This document shows positions 15,123 to 63,008 of a DNA stretch of 64,000 bases, one piece after another. Positions within the stretch are counted from its first letter, which is position 1. Each line of letters opens with the position of its first letter. The position numbers and the translations under genes are program-made. This stretch comes from Acinetobacter sp. ASP199 (GTDB taxonomy: Bacteria > Pseudomonadota > Gammaproteobacteria > Pseudomonadales > Moraxellaceae): assembly GCF_022700675.1 (NCBI RefSeq), contig NZ_CP062182.1, positions 744,001 to 808,000 of the forward strand. The letters are read 5' to 3'. Under the pieces are notes generated by a model. The model saw only the letters and a program-made list of their open reading frames with translations, searched no databases and was not told the DNA's origin.

Positions 15123-15263
15123 AATCCTCTCCCTAGCCCTCGTCCTTTCTTACGCTTCGTTTTAAAAGCAATGCTTTAAAACTCGCTCAGGAGAGGGAAT
15201 CACGCGTATTAAATTAATCACATGACAAAGTCTCCCTTTTTTAAAGGGAGATTTAGAGGGATT
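15123..15263. repeat. Inverted doublet of GC-rich hairpin repeats (REPIN-like), locus 1
   Basis: Two related units facing each other. The left unit starts AATCCTCTCCCTAGCCCT at 15123 and closes with GGAGAGG near 15190, with an internal hairpin GTTTTAAA/TTTAAAAC (about 15159-15182). The right unit is TCTCCCTTT-ttt-AAAGGGAGA (15231-15251) followed by TTTAGAGGGATT. Similar units occur at 52048, 60053 and 62828. This locus is a mixture of the CCCTCTCC and TCCCTTT sequence types. No nuclease gene adjoins this copy. Confidence 0.75.
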
Positions 15264-15496
15264 GAGAAAGTTGAATGTGTCCTAAGTCTTCAAGTTTGGT
15301 GATAGAGTATACTTTTTGATGGTCATCTTTTTGATTGTTAACTTCTTAGATTGGCTCTAAAAAATTAGAAATTGGATATTCAGTTTCTTTATTTGTATTC
15401 AAAAAAATATTTTTAGGATGTTTATTTAATTTGTTGATTTGTTATGATAATTATGTGTAAATTATTGGAATAATAGTAAAATTTTTAAAGAATTTA
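15264..15496. other. AT-rich leader before the membrane-protein gene
   Basis: About 230 bases of very AT-rich sequence between the repeat and the next gene. It probably carries the promoter of the 15497 gene. I see no hairpin or small gene in it. Confidence 0.4.
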
Positions 15497-16246
15497 ATGG
15501 ATATAGAGCTAAAAACGATTCTTAAGATATATTTATCAATCTATATTTTGATTTTAATTCCTTATAGCTTGGCTGAATATTTATTGTTTTGTACTGAAAG
15601 AGCTATCGTTTGTCAATTTGATGAATCTAAACTTATTGCATTTATCACACTATGTACATATATTATTTCTCCTATAGTTGCTTTGTATATTTTTAATGGG
15701 TGGAAGAAACAATCTAATCATAATCAGAAGCAAGAAGTTATTGGGAAATTGAATGATGGTTTAAGGATTTTGTCTACTATTTTATATAGAAATCATGGTC
15801 TTTATAACCGTATATGCGATGATAAAAAACTTGGACATAATTATGATTTTAGTCTAGATCTTGAAGAAAATGAGATTCTTAGGAAAGTAGGCAATGATGT
15901 TCTGTCTCTTCTGAAAGAGTTGTATTATTTAACAGATAAAAATAAAGAGTATTTATTGTTTCGCCACAAGTTTCATAAATATTTAGAAAATGTGAGTATA
16001 TATCTTAAAGAGGCATATAGATTAATTTATGAGAAACCCGAACAAGGACAGGACAGAATAAAAGAGTTAGCTGATTATTTTGAAGAAATGATACATATTT
16101 CTTATTATACAGATATTCATAATGAGAAATGGATTAAAATGTGTGATGTTTCTTTATTTAAGAAGGAGATATTTAAACATTGTTATGATGCCCAAAATGA
16201 TATTACAAATTATATTTTAAAAAATGACTTCGGTGTTGAAATTTAA
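15497..16246 (+). CDS. AT-rich membrane protein of unknown function (cargo-like gene)
   Basis: 249 residues. Two hydrophobic segments (about residues 9-30 and 46-67) are followed by F-N-G-W-K-K-Q-S-N-H-N and a cytoplasmic, mostly helical domain rich in Lys, Glu and Tyr. Small two-helix proteins of this form are common as singletons in Acinetobacter accessory regions. I do not know a function. Codon use is visibly more AT-rich than in gatB next to it, suggesting transfer. It starts about 230 bases after a hairpin doublet and ends at a terminator shared with the convergent gatB. A defence or membrane-damage role is possible but unsupported. Confidence 0.7.
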   Translation: MDIELKTILKIYLSIYILILIPYSLAEYLLFCTERAIVCQFDESKLIAFITLCTYIISPIVALYIFNGWKKQSNHNQKQEVIGKLNDGLRILSTILYRNHGLYNRICDDKKLGHNYDFSLDLEENEILRKVGNDVLSLLKELYYLTDKNKEYLLFRHKFHKYLENVSIYLKEAYRLIYEKPEQGQDRIKELADYFEEMIHISYYTDIHNEKWIKMCDVSLFKKEIFKHCYDAQNDITNYILKNDFGVEI

Positions 16247-30943: not shown

Positions 30944-31223
30944 GGTTCTTCCCTGAAATGTTGCATAAACATAATAAAAAGTTGTGGAAAAGTAACATAA
31001 AATTAAAAAGAGTAAATGCTCAGGTTCGATGAAGATTTGAACTGAGTAGTAATTAAAATAGAATCATTTAGAGTTTTTGTACTAAAAATACTAGGTTAAA
31101 TATGTGAATTAAATAGTATTTTAGTTATGTGGATTGGCTAAAATGACAAATAAATTATCTAAAAACTAAGTGATGTTTAAATCGTCAAATAGTTTACAAG
31201 TGTATAAAAATAATATTTGAATT
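30944..31223. other. AT-rich region upstream of FadL-like paralogue 2
   Basis: About 280 bases, very AT-rich, between the start of paralogue 2 and IS30 copy 2. It should hold the promoter of paralogue 2. No other structure seen. Confidence 0.4.
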
Positions 31224-32295
31224 CGCAGATTCAAATACCAAGTGCGACATATTTGTAGTTAGTTGAAAAAGTTAGGTGTATTAAAATCATTAGACTTTTT
31301 TCAACTCGCAATTGGAAAGCACCCAATGAAGCAATACACCCAACTTTCTCAAGATGAAAGATACGAAATTTATGCTGCTTTGAAAAGCAAATCTTCAATC
31401 TCTACCCTTGCCAGGGAGCTTGGACGTTCTCGATCAACCCTTTATCGTGAGATCAAAAGAAATACTGGAAAACGTGGATATCGAGCTCAACAGGCAGAGA
31501 AATTTTCAAGTCAAAGACGATATCGATCCTCTTCACAAATGACAGATTTTGCTCTCGTTTATATTCGTTATCTGATTGGCTTAGATTGGTCTCCTGAGCA
31601 AATTTCAGGTGCTTTAACACAACGAGGTTGGCTTGATGTGCCTTCACATGAATGGATTTATCAGTATGTTTATCTAGATAAATCTAAAGGTGGTAAGCTC
31701 CACCTTCATTTAAGGCATCAAAAGAAATATCGTAAACGAGGTTATAAAAATACAGACCGTAGAGGCCAACTCGTTGATAGAACAAGTATTCACTGTCGCG
31801 ATGAGGTCGTCGAGAAACGTCAACGCCTAGGTGATTTTGAAGGTGATACCGTGATAGGCAAGAATCACAAGGGGGCATTATTAACTCTGGTTGAGCGCAA
31901 AAGCTTGTATGTACATATCGTTCATTTGGGACAAACTAGAACCACAACTAAAACGATTTCGTGTGCTTTAGCATGTTTGCGCAGCAGTCATGCCTACAGT
32001 GTAACCTTTGATAATGGTAAGGAGTTCTCCGAGCACCGGCGGATAACGGAAGCAGGGATAGAGACGTACTTTGCAGATCCATACAAGTCGATTCAACGAG
32101 CCAGAAATGAAAATACCAATGGTCTGATCAGGCAATATCTGCCAAAATCATCTTCGTTTGATGAAGTGTCAAATGAACAAATAGAGCAGATAGAATTTGC
32201 TCTCAATCATCGCCCTAGAAAAACACTAGGCTGGTATACGCCTAGTGAAGTTATGGCTGGTTTTTATACTGTTGCACTTGCTGCTTGAATCCGCC
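31224..32295 (+). mobile_element. IS30-family insertion sequence, copy 2 (1072 bp)
   Basis: Same element as copies 1 and 3. It begins CGCAGATTCAAATACCAAG and ends with GCTGCTTGAATCCGCC. It is flanked by the 3-bp direct repeat ATT (31221-31223 and 32296-32298). It lies between FadL-like paralogues 2 and 3 and stops just before the terminator of paralogue 3, so it breaks no gene. Confidence 0.95.
31326..32288 (+). CDS. IS30-family transposase (copy 2)
   Basis: The 320-residue protein is the same as that of copy 1, with intact N-terminal helix-turn-helix and DDE core. An in-frame TTG at 31263 would add 21 residues. Its direction is opposite to copy 1 and the same as copy 3. Confidence 0.93.
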   Translation: MKQYTQLSQDERYEIYAALKSKSSISTLARELGRSRSTLYREIKRNTGKRGYRAQQAEKFSSQRRYRSSSQMTDFALVYIRYLIGLDWSPEQISGALTQRGWLDVPSHEWIYQYVYLDKSKGGKLHLHLRHQKKYRKRGYKNTDRRGQLVDRTSIHCRDEVVEKRQRLGDFEGDTVIGKNHKGALLTLVERKSLYVHIVHLGQTRTTTKTISCALACLRSSHAYSVTFDNGKEFSEHRRITEAGIETYFADPYKSIQRARNENTNGLIRQYLPKSSSFDEVSNEQIEQIEFALNHRPRKTLGWYTPSEVMAGFYTVALAA

Positions 32296-32302
32296 ATTAT
32301 AA

Positions 32303-51644: not shown

Positions 51645-52058
51645 ATGAAGCATCATCTTTGTATGGTGTTTTTTTTAAGCTTAATAAAAATAGTTCCCCA
51701 ACTATTAGAATTCGCCAAATCTATGCGCCACACCGCCACCGATGCAGAAGCTCTTATGTGGCAAGTCCTACGTGCCAAGCGTTTTATGGTACTTAAATTC
51801 CGTCGTCAGCAAGTAATCGCACCTTATATTGTAGATTTTTACTGTCATGAGACTGGCTTAGTGATTGAGTTGGATGGGAGTCAGCATGGAACGGCTGAGA
51901 AAAAAGAATACGACGCTGAACGTACCAAATTTTTAGAGGCTTTGGGGTTAACTGTAATTCGGTATTGGAATCATGATATTTTGGGGCGGACGGATGTGGT
52001 GTTGGAGGATTTGTGGAATGTGTGTTTTGAATTAAAAAGCAAAAGCACCTCTCCCTAA
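51645..52058 (+). CDS. DUF559 (Vsr-fold) endonuclease-domain protein, copy A
   Basis: About 137 residues with the DUF559 core: M-R-H-T-A-T-D-A-E-A-L-M-W, F-R-R-Q-Q, Y-I-V-D-F-Y-C (Asp64) and V-I-E-L-D-G-S-Q-H (Glu75, Asp77, Gln80, His81). DUF559 is related to the Vsr patch-repair nuclease fold. The start is uncertain: 51645 and the Met at 51723 are both possible, and the homologous region begins around L-L-E-F-A-K-S-M-R. The last codons and the stop (S-P-stop) lie inside the following hairpin repeat. Cellular role of the family is not established. Confidence 0.85.
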   Translation: MKHHLCMVFFLSLIKIVPQLLEFAKSMRHTATDAEALMWQVLRAKRFMVLKFRRQQVIAPYIVDFYCHETGLVIELDGSQHGTAEKKEYDAERTKFLEALGLTVIRYWNHDILGRTDVVLEDLWNVCFELKSKSTSP

Positions 52059-52160
52059 CCCTCTCCTGAGAGGAGAGGGGACTCCGTTGTGGAATTCATA
52101 TAGGTCTTAAATCCGACGATGCTCCCTCTCCCTATGGGAGAGGGCTAGGGTGAGGGTTTA
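52048..52160. repeat. Inverted doublet of hairpin repeats (REPIN-like), locus 2, at the end of DUF559 copy A
   Basis: Left unit: CCTCTCCCTAACCCTCTCC then the hairpin CCCTCTCC-tgaga-GGAGAGGG (52059-52079). Right unit: hairpin CCCTCTCCC-tat-GGGAGAGGG (52124-52144) then CTAGGGTGAGGGTTT, the inverse of the left unit. The spacer is about 45 bases. The stop codon of the DUF559 gene is the TAA of the first CCCTAA. Confidence 0.88.
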
Positions 52161-52237
52161 AAGTATAAAAATAGAGTGATTGAATTACTTCAAAATGATA
52201 TAAAACAATTAATTAAAATTTATTATGTGGGGGTGTT

Positions 52238-53305
52238 GTGAATTCTAAAGTTGAGATCAAAACTAAAGAAGATCATGGTCTATGGTATGACAATAATATT
52301 GATCCCTATAAAGGATTAGCGGAAATTATTGCTGTTACCTTAAAGAATTCATTAATTTCTCAGCAAATTAGTTTTGTAGATGTACCTTATCGTTCCAAAA
52401 CTAAGAAAAGCTTTTTAAAGAAAATTCAAGATAAACTGACAGAAAAAGATTATAGCCCTGAGTCAATGACTGATTTAGCAGGTATTCGGGTTATTACATT
52501 AATTGAAGCGGACGTACAAAAAGTTTGTGACTTGATTACTGCTATGTTTAATGTGCATAAAGCTGATAGCGTAAATAAATCAGAAAAATTAGGTGAGGAA
52601 AAAGTTGGTTATCGTTCAGTCCATTTTGTATGTGATGTAGGAAAAAATCGAGAAAAGTTACCTGAATTTTCAGCATATAAAGGTTTATGTTTTGAGATTC
52701 AAGTTAGAACTGCTTTAGAACATGCATGGGCTGAAATTGAGCATGATCGTGGTTATAAATTAGGGGGGAAATTACCATCATATTTAAATCGCCGGTTTAA
52801 ATTACTTTCAGGTTTGTTAGAGTCAGCAGATCTTGAATTTAACCGTTTAACTGTTGAAATCGAAGAGTATGCAAAACAAGTAAATGAGAATATTAATAAA
52901 GATATATTAAATTATGAACTTACGAATATCGGATTGAAGAAATTATTTCAAAATAAATATAAAAGTTTGAAGTTTCAAGATTATGAATTAGAAGCATCGA
53001 TTGGGAATATTTTAATATCAGAGTTAAATTTGTTTGGATTAGACACTTTATCTAAGTTAGATAAAGAAATAGAAAAATTAACAAATCAATATGATTTTCA
53101 ACCGAACAATACAATTCTAGGATTTTGTAGAGATCTTATGATGTTGGAAAATCTTAGTGAGTATTTTGAAAAAGTATTTTTCGATTTAAGACCATGGGGC
53201 GCTACTGATATCAAAACTTATAATTTTTTGACTCAAAAATACACGGGGGAGGAAATTGATAATATATTTGATAAATATGATGTGTACGTTATTGAAGATG
53301 ACTAA
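52238..53305 (+). CDS. RelA/SpoT-domain protein (small alarmone synthetase-like)
   Basis: 355 residues. The synthetase domain is seen as Y-R-S-K-T-K-K-S-F-L-K-K-I (51-63), D-L-A-G-I-R-V-I (79-86), G-Y-R-S-V-H-F (124-130) and E-I-Q-V-R-T-A-L-E-H-A-W-A-E-I-E-H-D (153-170). There is no HD hydrolase domain and no TGS or ACT domain. A C-terminal extension of about 150 residues is helical and unassigned. Start is GTG at 52238 after a GGGGG site. Strongly AT-rich. It could make pppGpp-type alarmones, or be a toxic alarmone synthetase as in toxSAS systems. No small antitoxin gene is adjacent. Confidence 0.85.
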   Translation: MNSKVEIKTKEDHGLWYDNNIDPYKGLAEIIAVTLKNSLISQQISFVDVPYRSKTKKSFLKKIQDKLTEKDYSPESMTDLAGIRVITLIEADVQKVCDLITAMFNVHKADSVNKSEKLGEEKVGYRSVHFVCDVGKNREKLPEFSAYKGLCFEIQVRTALEHAWAEIEHDRGYKLGGKLPSYLNRRFKLLSGLLESADLEFNRLTVEIEEYAKQVNENINKDILNYELTNIGLKKLFQNKYKSLKFQDYELEASIGNILISELNLFGLDTLSKLDKEIEKLTNQYDFQPNNTILGFCRDLMMLENLSEYFEKVFFDLRPWGATDIKTYNFLTQKYTGEEIDNIFDKYDVYVIEDD

Positions 53306-53306
53306 T

Positions 53307-53334
53307 AAAAATCCCCTCATTCGAGGGGATTTTT
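53307..53334. terminator. Bidirectional terminator between the RelA/SpoT gene and valS
   Basis: 12-bp stem AAAAATCCCCTC and its complement with loop ATTC, T/A-rich on both sides. A nearly identical hairpin is found at 62943, next to metH. Confidence 0.92.
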
Positions 53335-59700: not shown

Positions 59701-60063
59701 ATGAAACCCTACAATAAAAATTTAAAACAGGCCTCAAGGGATTTACGCAATAACATGACGGATGCTGAAAAGTTGCTTTGGTCGCGGCTGCGTAATAAGA
59801 AAATACTAGGCTTGCAATTTTATCGGCAAAAGCCAATTTTAAACTACATCGTAGATTTTTACTGTCCTGCTGCTAATTTGGTGATAGAGTGTGATGGTAG
59901 CCAGCACTTTACAATTGATGGCTTAGAAGCAGATCGTATTCGCGATGAAGATTTGACTCAGCTTGGGTTAAAGGTTTTACGATTTGATAATGGGCAGGTG
60001 ATGCGGCAGTTGGATGATGTGGTGGAAGTGATTTATCAATTTATTCAACAAGAATCCCCCTAA
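59701..60063 (+). CDS. DUF559 (Vsr-fold) endonuclease-domain protein, copy B
   Basis: 120 residues with a complete DUF559 domain: M-K-P-Y-N-K-N-L-K at the start, L-R-N-N-M-T-D-A-E-K-L-L-W, F-Y-R-Q-K-P and I-V-D-F-Y-C (Asp52). V-I-E-C-D-G-S-Q-H-F holds Glu63, Asp65, Gln68 and His69. This is the normal size for the family. Copy A has the same layout but is quite diverged in sequence. It ends S-P-stop, and the codons TCC CCC TAA are already part of the following hairpin repeat. A mild AAAGAG precedes the ATG. Confidence 0.92.
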   Translation: MKPYNKNLKQASRDLRNNMTDAEKLLWSRLRNKKILGLQFYRQKPILNYIVDFYCPAANLVIECDGSQHFTIDGLEADRIRDEDLTQLGLKVLRFDNGQVMRQLDDVVEVIYQFIQQESP

Positions 60064-60158
60064 ATCCCCCTTTGATAAAGGGGGACTTCCCGCGAATTTA
60101 ATGGCAGTTTTAGATTCGTGTGGTTTCTCCCTTTTTTAAAGGGAGGTTAGGAGGGATT
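60053..60158. repeat. Inverted doublet of hairpin repeats (REPIN-like), locus 3, at the end of DUF559 copy B
   Basis: Left unit AATCCCCCTAAATCCCCCTTT with hairpin TCCCCCTTT-gat-AAAGGGGGA (60065-60085). Right unit CTCCCTTT-ttt-AAAGGGAG (60127-60145) followed by GTTAGGAGGGATT, the inverse of the left. Spacer of about 40 bases. The nuclease stop codon is again the TAA in CCCTAA. Confidence 0.88.
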
Positions 60159-60278: not shown

Positions 60279-61718
60279 ATGATTTTTCCAAGACAATATA
60301 TTCAAGAGTGCATTGATTTAATTAGACATAAAACGAGTGATCTAAAGCATTTATTAATGCGTCTCAATAATTCGAAAAGACCAGAGGAAGCTTTGGGGGC
60401 GATGTGGGAAGTCGTGGTTTCTGCCGAATTATCCAAGTTGGGAAATGTAGATTTCGAAAAAGATTTTGGCGTAAATGTGAAGCCAGATATCTTTTTTAGT
60501 TCTGATCAGTTGGACTTCCTTGCAGATATAAAATGTATCTCTGATCAAAATAAACATGAAAATAACAGAGTTGGAGAGTTGCAGCTTTTAATCTATAAAC
60601 ACTTCTGTAATTTGGGTTTGAACACATTTTCATGTCATGTAAAAGTACAAGATACTATTGTTGAAAATAGGAATGGGAAATCAGTTGATCTTAAATTGCC
60701 TAAGGATATTTCAGGATATTTTCATAATCATATTAAAAAGGAACTAAAACCAGATAAATTCAATTATGATTTTAAGGACTTGGGTGACCATAAAGGATTG
60801 TGCTTTAGTCTAGAGGTCAGATTAAATGATCAGTATTCTACTGCGCATCATGCAAGTTATACCGTATCGGAAGATGATAAAAATACTACTCTTTATAAGA
60901 CTCTTGATAAGCAATATAAGCAGGTTGAATTTTATGAGGGATTCAAAGGTTTTATTGTCTGTGATGGTGATTATGACTTGTTTAGACAAAGAAATTATAG
61001 TGTTAGAAAGCAATATGCAACTTTTGAATCTGTCTGCAATCGTTATTTAGAATACAAAAGTAAAGTAGGGTTCGTTGTGGGTTTATGGATTGAAAATAAA
61101 AAAGGAGCTTTTGAGAGAGGTTATGACATAAAATTTGAAGTTCACTGTAATGATCTGTGTGAAAAGAAAAAATTAGAAAAATTATTTGGACATATTGTAG
61201 AAGAACTACCTGAAGTGATTAGATCACCAGTTAATGTTAAGAATTTACTATCTTCAAAAAATAAATACGGGAGTGGCTCGATTGGATTTCGAGGACAAAG
61301 TAATAAATTGGAAACAACTTATGGTTTTAGCTTGAGAGAAATCCAATCGGTATTAGCGGGTAAGGTGCAAATAATGTTAAATGACAAACATAATTTGTTC
61401 CCGTGTATTCCATTGCAAGAAATAGTGGAAATTTGGGTTGATCAGAAAGTCTATAAAGAAGATTTCATTTTCAACATAAGATGTAAAAAAGAATCTAAGT
61501 TAAGGATAGATAAAGAACTTTACAATTATGATGCCATTGTTGCTATAAAATTATTTGTTAATTTAATGACTGAAAAAATAAGCTTTTGTGATTTTGAGCG
61601 AAAATTAATTTTAGACAATAACCTGCAAAGTAATCCATTTAGAGATTATCTTGAAAAAGGGTATCTAATTAAAGACGCAGATTCAAATACCAAGTGCGAC
61701 ATATTTGTAGTTAGTTGA
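60279..61718 (+). pseudogene. Putative PD-(D/E)xK-type protein, 3-prime end displaced by IS30 copy 3
   Basis: Present frame is 479 residues. It starts M-I-F-P-R-Q-Y-I-Q-E-C-I-D-L and shows a nuclease-like pattern: Glu44 in M-W-E-V-V, Asp70 in K-P-D-I-F and D83-I-K85. This is the spacing of PD-(D/E)xK restriction-type enzymes, seen by eye only. The last 15 or so residues come from the IS30 left end. Removing the element and one target copy rejoins the frame to 62751-62829, ending D-F-I-stop, with about 26 other residues. AT-rich. Function unknown, possibly defence-related. It may still be functional with its changed tail. Confidence 0.7.
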
Positions 61719-62747
61719 AAAAGTTAGGTGTATTAAAATCATTAGACTTTTTTCAACTCGCAATTGGAAAGCACCCAATGAAGCAATACACCCAACTTTC
61801 TCAAGATGAAAGATACGAAATTTATGCTGCTTTGAAAAGCAAATCTTCAATCTCTACCCTTGCCAGGGAGCTTGGACGTTCTCGATCAACCCTTTATCGT
61901 GAGATCAAAAGAAATACTGGAAAACGTGGATATCGAGCTCAACAGGCAGAGAAATTTTCAAGTCAAAGACGATATCGATCCTCTTCACAAATGACAGATT
62001 TTGCTCTCGTTTATATTCGTTATCTGATTGGCTTAGATTGGTCTCCTGAGCAAATTTCAGGTGCTTTAACACAACGAGGTTGGCTTGATGTGCCTTCACA
62101 TGAATGGATTTATCAGTATGTTTATCTAGATAAATCTAAAGGTGGTAAGCTCCACCTTCATTTAAGGCATCAAAAGAAATATCGTAAACGAGGTTATAAA
62201 AATACAGACCGTAGAGGCCAACTCGTTGATAGAACAAGTATTCACTGTCGCGATGAGGTCGTCGAGAAACGTCAACGCCTAGGTGATTTTGAAGGTGATA
62301 CCGTGATAGGCAAGAATCACAAGGGGGCATTATTAACTCTGGTTGAGCGCAAAAGCTTGTATGTACATATCGTTCATTTGGGACAAACTAGAACCACAAC
62401 TAAAACGATTTCGTGTGCTTTAGCATGTTTGCGCAGCAGTCATGCCTACAGTGTAACCTTTGATAATGGTAAGGAGTTCTCCGAGCACCGGCGGATAACG
62501 GAAGCAGGGATAGAGACGTACTTTGCAGATCCATACAAGTCGATTCAACGAGCCAGAAATGAAAATACCAATGGTCTGATCAGGCAATATCTGCCAAAAT
62601 CATCTTCGTTTGATGAAGTGTCAAATGAACAAATAGAGCAGATAGAATTTGCTCTCAATCATCGCCCTAGAAAAACACTAGGCTGGTATACGCCTAGTGA
62701 AGTTATGGCTGGTTTTTATACTGTTGCACTTGCTGCTTGAATCCGCC
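61676..62747 (+). mobile_element. IS30-family insertion sequence, copy 3 (1072 bp)
   Basis: Same ends and length as copies 1 and 2, with a 3-bp target duplication AGA (61673-61675 and 62748-62750). It is inserted inside the last codons of the nuclease-like gene. Confidence 0.95.
61778..62740 (+). CDS. IS30-family transposase (copy 3)
   Basis: 320 residues, same protein as copies 1 and 2, ATG at 61778. A TTG at 61715 overlaps the end of the interrupted gene and would add 21 residues. Confidence 0.93.
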   Translation: MKQYTQLSQDERYEIYAALKSKSSISTLARELGRSRSTLYREIKRNTGKRGYRAQQAEKFSSQRRYRSSSQMTDFALVYIRYLIGLDWSPEQISGALTQRGWLDVPSHEWIYQYVYLDKSKGGKLHLHLRHQKKYRKRGYKNTDRRGQLVDRTSIHCRDEVVEKRQRLGDFEGDTVIGKNHKGALLTLVERKSLYVHIVHLGQTRTTTKTISCALACLRSSHAYSVTFDNGKEFSEHRRITEAGIETYFADPYKSIQRARNENTNGLIRQYLPKSSSFDEVSNEQIEQIEFALNHRPRKTLGWYTPSEVMAGFYTVALAA

Positions 62748-62750
62748 AGA

Positions 62751-62829
62751 TGTAAGAGTCATAAGTGATGATTATATTGGTTTCAAATTTGATATTAATA
62801 AGAGTCCACTAATTTCTGATTTTATTTAA
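62751..62829 (+). pseudogene. Displaced 3-prime end of the nuclease-like gene
   Basis: 79 bases that continue the reading frame of the 60279 gene when the IS is removed: V-R-V-I-S-D-D-Y-I-G-F-K-F-D-I-N-K and S-P-L-I-S-D-F-I, then TAA. The stop is immediately followed by hairpin repeat locus 4. Confidence 0.8.
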
Positions 62830-62926
62830 TCCCTCCCAACCTCCCTTTTAGAAAGGGAGGAGCTATCACGCAATCCATTTGATCCGTAAAATTCCCCTCT
62901 TTTTCAAAGAGGGGTTAGGGGAGATT
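62828..62926. repeat. Inverted doublet of hairpin repeats (REPIN-like), locus 4
   Basis: Left unit AATCCCTCCCAACCTCCC with hairpin CCTCCCTTT-tag-AAAGGGAGG (62840-62860). Right unit CCCCTCTTT-ttc-AAAGAGGGG (62894-62914) and TTAGGGGAGATT. It adjoins the original stop of the interrupted gene, so the same contact between stop codon and repeat is seen here with a different protein. Confidence 0.85.
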
Positions 62927-62942
62927 AAAAAATTTAAAACAA

Positions 62943-62970
62943 AAAAATCCCCTCACTTGAGGGGATTTTT
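62943..62970. terminator. Bidirectional terminator beside metH
   Basis: 13-bp stem AAAAATCCCCTCA and its complement with a 2-base loop. Very similar to the terminator between the RelA/SpoT gene and valS at 53307. Confidence 0.85.
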
Positions 62971-62971
62971 A

Positions 62972-63008
62972 TTCCCCCTTTGTTGAAGGGGGAATAGGGG
63001 GGGATTCA
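62972..63008. repeat. Single hairpin unit of the same repeat family
   Basis: TTCCCCCTT-tgttg-AAGGGGGAA (62972-62994) followed by TAGGGGGGGATT, one half of a doublet, immediately before the metH stop. Confidence 0.7.

Follow-up and report, generated by a model that had tools for sequence, protein, structure and literature searches.

The 64,000-nucleotide window analysed here, a stretch of the genome of Acinetobacter sp. ASP199 (NZ_CP062182.1, positions 744,001 to 808,000), holds two small nuclease genes of the DUF559 family, each with an inverted pair of hairpins touching its stop codon and a cargo gene behind, and this layout raises the question of whether the nuclease and the hairpins belong together. 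An earlier note on this DNA had described the layout at both loci, and Pfam matches to DUF559 and RelA_SpoT as well as the coordinates of the doublets agree with it. The first nuclease gene (51645..52058, forward strand) encodes 137 aa (Pfam PF04480, E 4.4e-36) and the second (59701..60063, forward strand) 120 aa (E 4.1e-35); by tblastn they belong to two clades, A and B, respectively. Their profile scores of 123.5 and 120.4 bits compare with a curated cut-off of 20.6, and they are the two strong DUF559 matches of the source genome, which has one weak partial match besides. A weak DUF559-like match at G000:C1:1018532-1018693, of a kind that recurs across Acinetobacter (about 33–41 bits, in a frame of about 150–215 aa), perhaps represents a separate nuclease-fold family.

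The doublet adjoining the clade A gene (52048-52159) is of the CCCTCTCC type ('A') and consists of a unit on the forward strand (52048..52079; tail 52048-52058, hairpin 52059-52079) and an inverted unit on the reverse strand (52124..52159; hairpin 52124-52144, tail up to 52159). The doublet adjoining the clade B gene (60053-60158) is of the CTCCCTTT type ('B'), with a forward unit delimited by sequence and folding (60053..60085; tail 60053-60063, hairpin about 60065-60085) and an inverted unit on the reverse strand (60127..60158; hairpin 60127-60145, tail up to 60158). In each case the left unit starts inside the nuclease gene, and its tail contributes the TAA that serves as stop codon (52056-52058 and 60061-60063); the final codons of the clade A protein, ...SP-stop, lie within that tail. 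Folding of five repeat stretches of the window gave z-scores of -2.4 to -5.9. Across the 3.05-Mb source genome the type A pattern has 14 matches (up to two mismatches) versus none for the same pattern read backwards, and the type B pattern 15 (up to three mismatches) versus one; most pattern matches in each Acinetobacter genome stand away from the nuclease gene.

Behind the first doublet lies a cargo-slot gene for a RelA_SpoT-domain protein (52238..53305, forward strand; Pfam, with a partial match to PADLOC PDC-S33), separated from valS by a symmetric, terminator-like hairpin (53307..53334, unstranded) that has a similar copy at 62943-62970; both are of another type than the C-rich repeats. 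The cargo-slot gene of the second locus (60279..61718, forward strand) matched neither Pfam (E 0.01) nor PADLOC (E 0.001) and is apparently interrupted, because its 3′ end lies inside an insertion element (61678..62748, forward strand, ends approximate; transposase ORF 61715-62740 with HTH_38 and rve matches). We take this element, which the earlier note does not mention, to be of IS30 type, and a second, near-identical copy stands at about 31214-32300 of the window. A type B doublet with outward tails closes the second slot (62828..62926, unstranded; hairpins 62840-62860 and 62894-62914), and a single type B-like unit stands ahead of metH (62973..63005, reverse strand). A third locus, 15123-16246, combines a doublet and a gene without a nuclease, as had been claimed: a mixed doublet of a type A-like unit and an inverted type B-like unit (15123..15268, unstranded; sequence and folding) precedes a 249-aa cargo-slot gene (15497..16246, forward strand), likewise unmatched in Pfam (E 0.01) and in PADLOC (E 0.001), past which a gene named gatB in the earlier note lies on the opposite strand. 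The loop of its left hairpin contains an internally palindromic module of about 40–45 nt with a GAGTTTTAAAAGCAATGCTTTAAAACTCGCTC core (15140-15187), also present in hairpin loops at L358, L359 and L360, as if the loops of the repeats were themselves insertion points.

The association extends far beyond the window. DUF559 was matched (E 1e-20) in 60 of 249 Pseudomonadota genomes, the source genome counted, and 40 of the other 59 were taken with one match each in 20-kb segments, 19 being omitted, several for short contigs. C-rich hairpins stood within 350 bp of the DUF559 domain in 35 of these 40 genomes, on both sides in 21. Their density was 3.65 per kb up to a distance of 250 bp and fell to 0.03–0.12 per kb past 1 kb; mirror-image hairpins of equal strength numbered five in total, none of them near DUF559. 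A second set comprised 80 named loci, the best 80 of 574 confirmed DUF559 loci from GTDB species, mostly Pseudomonadota. Here 74 loci had C-rich hairpins at most 300 bp from DUF559, 44 of them on both sides, with 133 hairpins in the nearest 150 bp versus 1.8 expected, and going by record titles this set takes in Cyanobacteriota (L155, L175), Chloroflexota (L120), Planctomycetota (L148) and Nitrospirota (L176). C-rich hairpins near DUF559 thus exceed the local background about 75-fold, and the closeness of doublets to DUF559 genes that the earlier note had proposed is far beyond chance in several phyla. Such a hairpin was absent near DUF559 in 6 of the 80 loci and 5 of the 40 genomes. DUF559 was likewise flanked by hairpins in 15 of 20 loci from a viral collection (the first 20 of 30 examined).

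Chance or base composition as the source of the hairpins is ruled out by the mirror-image control and the distance bins. That any small nuclease gene is flanked in this way is ruled out by Vsr genes of the same phylum, for which 0 of 30 had a C-rich hairpin within 350 bp, one locus offering just 91 bp on one side. The link between DUF559 and the repeats is close to certain, and it is general among the loci examined. Some arrangements are more elaborate: about a dozen B-like units form an array by the DUF559 gene of L033 (1863-3049), from a genome of the same taxonomic class and a different family, and in Neisseria gonorrhoeae L107 (3502-4196) the repeat hairpins occur three times with a 281-bp period behind the gene. 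In passing, we observed that NZ_CP141089.1, NZ_OL790696.1 and NZ_CP119142.1 are chromosome-size records filed as plasmids in PLSDB (E. coli, 4.8–4.9 Mb; N. gonorrhoeae, 2.2 Mb).

The units share a common anatomy, in which the tail is a mirror-form copy of the hairpin arm. The nearest upstream unit points its tail toward the DUF559 gene in 42 of 64 cases (13 reversed, 9 ambiguous) and the nearest downstream unit in 32 of 54 (12 reversed, 10 ambiguous), the full inward pattern being present in 21 of the 44 loci with units on both sides. Among 86 readable Acinetobacter DUF559 genes, 37 take their stop codon from the tail and end in ...SP; E. coli YcjD ends in ...RRSPSP. Units are paired in inverted orientation in the window doublets and at the Acinetobacter loci. 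We applied a triplex rule in which the mirror-read tail is laid as a third strand on the purine arm, with G on G-C and A or T on A-T pairs at 85% or more of positions. Of 161 units near DUF559 in the 80-locus set, 110 followed this rule, versus 1.9% with shuffled flanks, and 51, about a third, departed from it; the corresponding numbers were 92 of 107 for Acinetobacter A, 44 of 52 for Acinetobacter B and 34 of 35 for E. coli, with shuffled-flank rates of 0.9–5.4% over all four sets. Among ordinary hairpins 3 of 597 followed the rule. C-rich hairpins of these loci that stand at a distance from DUF559 followed it in 33 of 55 cases, about as often as near ones. Because most units fit the combination of purine arm and mirror tail, we assigned the DUF559-flanking repeats to the BoxC/PIT/TMECO structural class: to judge by their letters, the doublets are of this known repeat type, and triplex folding is predicted for the Acinetobacter units.

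According to Holder et al. 2015 (PMC4666352), BoxC/PIT/TMECO elements occur in over 260 genomes, including those of E. coli, Neisseria and cyanobacteria, and 23 times in MG1655; the E. coli motif is described as forming stable triplexes in vitro and as marking variable loci. BoxC had been described in the 1990s, and by Hoyne 2000, as cited there, with no enzyme attached. The published elements share with those analysed here the C-rich arm, the G-rich arm, the mirror tail as third strand, the intergenic location and the inverted pairs. They differ in having been presented as motifs without an enzyme; Holder et al. link TMECO to no mobility genes or activities near the sites and describe the changes as mostly small and intergenic (PMC4666352), and the words DUF559, ycjD and nuclease are absent from the main text of that paper.

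The annotation of E. coli K-12 assigns ycjD, which stands between sapF and fabI, to DUF559; the domain scores 164–166 bits at ycjD in strains KE47 and H240. KE47 has one unit directly behind ycjD and an inverted unit about 0.2 kb further, and in MG1655 the scan detects the inverted unit only, 168 bp behind the ycjD stop. Of the 5375 E. coli genomes that gave a match, 3362 have one that spans 80% or more of the ycjD region. According to passages of a 2026 paper, ycjD replaces eefRABCD in part of E. coli (PMC12817139); these passages do not mention repeats. Our literature search, which ran without bioRxiv and most subscription papers and saw its sources in part, found no paper tying DUF559 or ycjD to these repeats, so that as far as it reached the pairing is undescribed.

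Within Acinetobacter, nuclease clades and repeat families are paired almost exclusively. In 91 loci, scanned with a pattern-free and slightly looser hairpin search, clade A genes had A units in 42 of 43 cases and B units in none, and clade B genes had B units in 39 of 48 (three of them also with an A call), A alone in three and no unit in six. With typed patterns, 24 of the 48 clade B loci lacked pattern B (22 with no pattern, two with A only), and at these the looser scan mostly found a unit. At L273 and L279, two of the B genes with A only, an A doublet stands at the truncated start of the B gene; the 'A' cores by B genes at L224 and L235 resemble unrelated hairpins. Both clades occur together in 27 Acinetobacter genomes, so the pairing does not reflect a genome-wide bias. 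As the flanking units might travel with the gene, the pairing alone is no proof of recognition.

The number of doublets also follows the presence of the nuclease, as the earlier note had anticipated, with exceptions; the link thus withstands both tests that the note had named as able to refute it. Across 119 Acinetobacter genomes, rank tests of repeat number against nuclease presence gave 1.7e-6 and 2.2e-7 with kinship ignored, the repeat counts per genome being lower bounds because variants escape the typed patterns for A and B. All 43 genomes with an A nuclease carry A repeats, and B repeats are missing from just one of the 48 that have a B nuclease. Where nuclease and fragment are both absent (48 genomes), 27 lack A repeats, 26 lack B repeats and 22 lack the two together. 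Genomes with nuclease fragments only were kept apart, and G068, with a strong but unclassed DUF559 match, stood outside the 'neither' group. At least one unit was retained in 26 of these 48 genomes, and five genomes without a nuclease (G012, G043, G059, G071 and G080) had ten or more units of at least one family; the retained units may be remnants still decaying in genomes that have lost the nuclease.

The positions of the nuclease genes are conserved. Among 60 Acinetobacter loci with flanks of about 3 kb, 16 of the 17 clade A genes adjoin valS and 36 of the 43 clade B genes adjoin metH, at distances of 0.2–2.7 kb. Recent unit insertion at the two window loci is thereby ruled out: because both sites are genus-wide, the repeated layout consists of two old sites, and the suggestion of fresh landings does not hold for the DUF559 loci. 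Of the idea that doublets are landing places for cargo, what stands is a turnover of variable genes behind the nuclease. The slot between nuclease and housekeeping gene held 67 ORFs in 35 families, including 11 Hypoth_Ymh/PD-Lambda-3-like proteins (one homologous family), 6–8 OLD, GajA or AriA-like ATPases, two SIR2, two RelA_SpoT and three 5′-nucleotidase proteins, and integrase-core transposases. The top PADLOC families of these ORFs had 11 and 8 members, by broad models, whereas none exceeded two members among 67 control ORFs drawn at random from 143 on the other side of the nuclease; 220 PADLOC models were matched for the slot versus 117 for the control. By this contrast the slot is a candidate for a small defence-gene hotspot, a tentative one in view of the breadth of the PADLOC models.

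Signs of movement of the doublets were sought at several sites. In five Acinetobacter genomes, four without a strong DUF559 match (G115, G007, G045 and G004) and G044, a gap of 12–22 bp separates pcaF from the gene for CoA-transferase subunit B; elsewhere this gap is occupied by B doublets whose tails point outward, by B units arranged the opposite way or, at L404, by an A doublet. Such empty gaps were deliberately sought (42 rows) and so give no rate of empty sites. Among 20 regions picked as looking empty or split, two were 10-base placeholders and eight lacked a usable flank pair. The gap is polymorphic with no clean boundary of a single event, and the A doublets at truncated B-gene starts (L273, L274 and L279) are no clean insertions. 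Two E. coli strains carry 15 and 33 units. Unit-bearing queries were covered to 80% or more in at least 874 of 5375 E. coli genomes for ytfQ-ytfR and in 1594 of 5375 for yhjG-yhjE. At pepA-holC, tusA-zntA, yhjG-yhjE and ytfQ-ytfR polymorphism is present, with no clean insertion or target duplication. At some intergenic places (L283, L305 and L307) BoxC-type units alternate with other alleles that we read as BIME-like sequence, so replacement by recombination is likely in E. coli. Dispersal and turnover of the repeats are established, and active transposition stands as a hypothesis.

DUF559 has the fold of Vsr and of EDxHD homing endonucleases, with a weak resemblance to Holliday-junction resolvases. 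In an alignment of 22 DUF559 sequences E15, D44, H61 and D70 are invariant, and we take them to be the EDxHD motif. The closest solved structure is NGO0050 of N. gonorrhoeae (3hrl), a DUF559-like protein 49% identical over the aligned part, whose entry title just names a putative endonuclease-like protein; the gonococcal DUF559 loci L107 and L163, which might encode NGO0050 itself, carry the repeats. Next, by sequence and by fold, comes the homing endonuclease I-Bth0305I (3r3p). Vsr and I-Bth0305I share fold and active-site pattern with DUF559, which differs as a short single-domain protein, known here from sequence, whose gene lies between repeats.

The layout resembles that of REP/RAYT systems, as had been remarked: short hairpins that carry a 5′ tail and are scattered between genes as inverted pairs bracket a nuclease gene that is low in copy number and fixed in position, and two coexisting families each have their own enzyme. 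Doublets away from a nuclease can have outward tails with nearly no spacer, as in the pcaF gap, which is the REPIN layout; the tails of the window doublets point outward too. The enzymes differ, a Vsr-fold (EDxHD-type) nuclease here versus a Y1 HUH transposase there, and the GTAG/CGTC tag at the hairpin foot is not seen in our units, which by eye have C-rich tails. The earlier note had found no Y1 transposase; the gene bracketed by repeats is indeed DUF559, whereas the source genome does hold one full-length Y1_Tnp (PF01797) gene far from the window (G000:C1:2771732-2772094). A RAYT as hidden cause is ruled out for most genomes of the genus, PF01797 matches being absent from 97 of 119. Near rhizobial DUF559 genes, ATCTCCCCC...GGGGGAGAT hairpin pairs bear a general likeness to RIME elements, and their flanks are unlike the mirror tail.

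Three other readings have to be weighed against a working partnership. DUF559 could be a selfish endonuclease like I-Bth0305I, its best match among solved structures apart from 3hrl, that cuts repeat-like sites, converts neighbouring alleles and so spreads its locus and the slot, the dispersed doublets being by-products. The turnover of cargo next to DUF559 and the exchange of ycjD for eefRABCD between sapF and fabI, as given in passages of PMC12817139, fit such a driver, but across Acinetobacter the genes are mainly confined to two sites, a target site did not come to light and most pattern matches lie away from the nuclease; we consider this reading unlikely. Somewhat more doubtful is a caretaker role, in which the repeats are very old or spread by other means, DUF559 trims or resolves a hairpin or triplex that would stall replication, and the units by the gene serve the gene's own regulation. 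The fold that DUF559 shares with Vsr, a repair nuclease, and to a weak degree with Holliday-junction resolvases, the fixed sites of the genes and the in vitro triplexes of BoxC at variable loci (PMC4666352, in passages) speak for it, but by itself it leaves the bracketing, the tail-supplied stop codon and the clade-specific repeat families unexplained.

That the repeats are terminators or insulators which bracket a horizontally carried gene by chance, unrelated to the nuclease, we regard as highly improbable. A hairpin at the end of a gene can act as a transcription terminator, and such a role was presumed by the authors of the Enterobacter 638 genome (PMC2869309, in passages). Yet Vsr genes, small and accessory too, are devoid of such hairpins in the 30 cases above, PIT elements are reported without promoter or terminator activity (as cited in passages of PMC4666352), and hitch-hiking sits poorly with the clade pairing and the correlation with nuclease presence in Acinetobacter.

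We favour the reading, which we think probable, that the BoxC/PIT/TMECO repeats, palindromic and capable of triplex folding, have in DUF559 (YcjD) a nuclease dedicated to them, cleavage and mobilisation being what we infer. In such a partnership the nuclease would recognise the folded unit, a hairpin with its tail laid back as a third strand, which would become available on single-stranded DNA at replication forks. Nicking or cutting of the unit might then let inverted pairs reach further intergenic positions by copying or recombination. The nuclease gene would stay put and the doublets would form the non-autonomous, dispersing part, as in REP/RAYT; as a side effect, the nuclease loci might turn into slots with turnover of accessory, often defence-type, genes. 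A bolder version, which we put forward tentatively, is that DUF559 may mobilise BoxC-type repeats across the Bacteria as a whole; this would be a second repeat–enzyme system, independent of RAYT, in which a Vsr-fold nuclease acts on a triplex-forming hairpin unit and spreads inverted doublets, and in which its fixed loci serve as exchange slots for defence genes.

DUF559 is thus a candidate enzyme for the cutting, copying or keeping of BoxC repeats. The pairing gives these elements a named candidate, ycjD of E. coli K-12, for which the structure of a homologue is solved and an active site is predicted, and to a question about repeats that is thirty years old it brings a widespread nuclease family of obscure function, which in turn gains a likely substrate.
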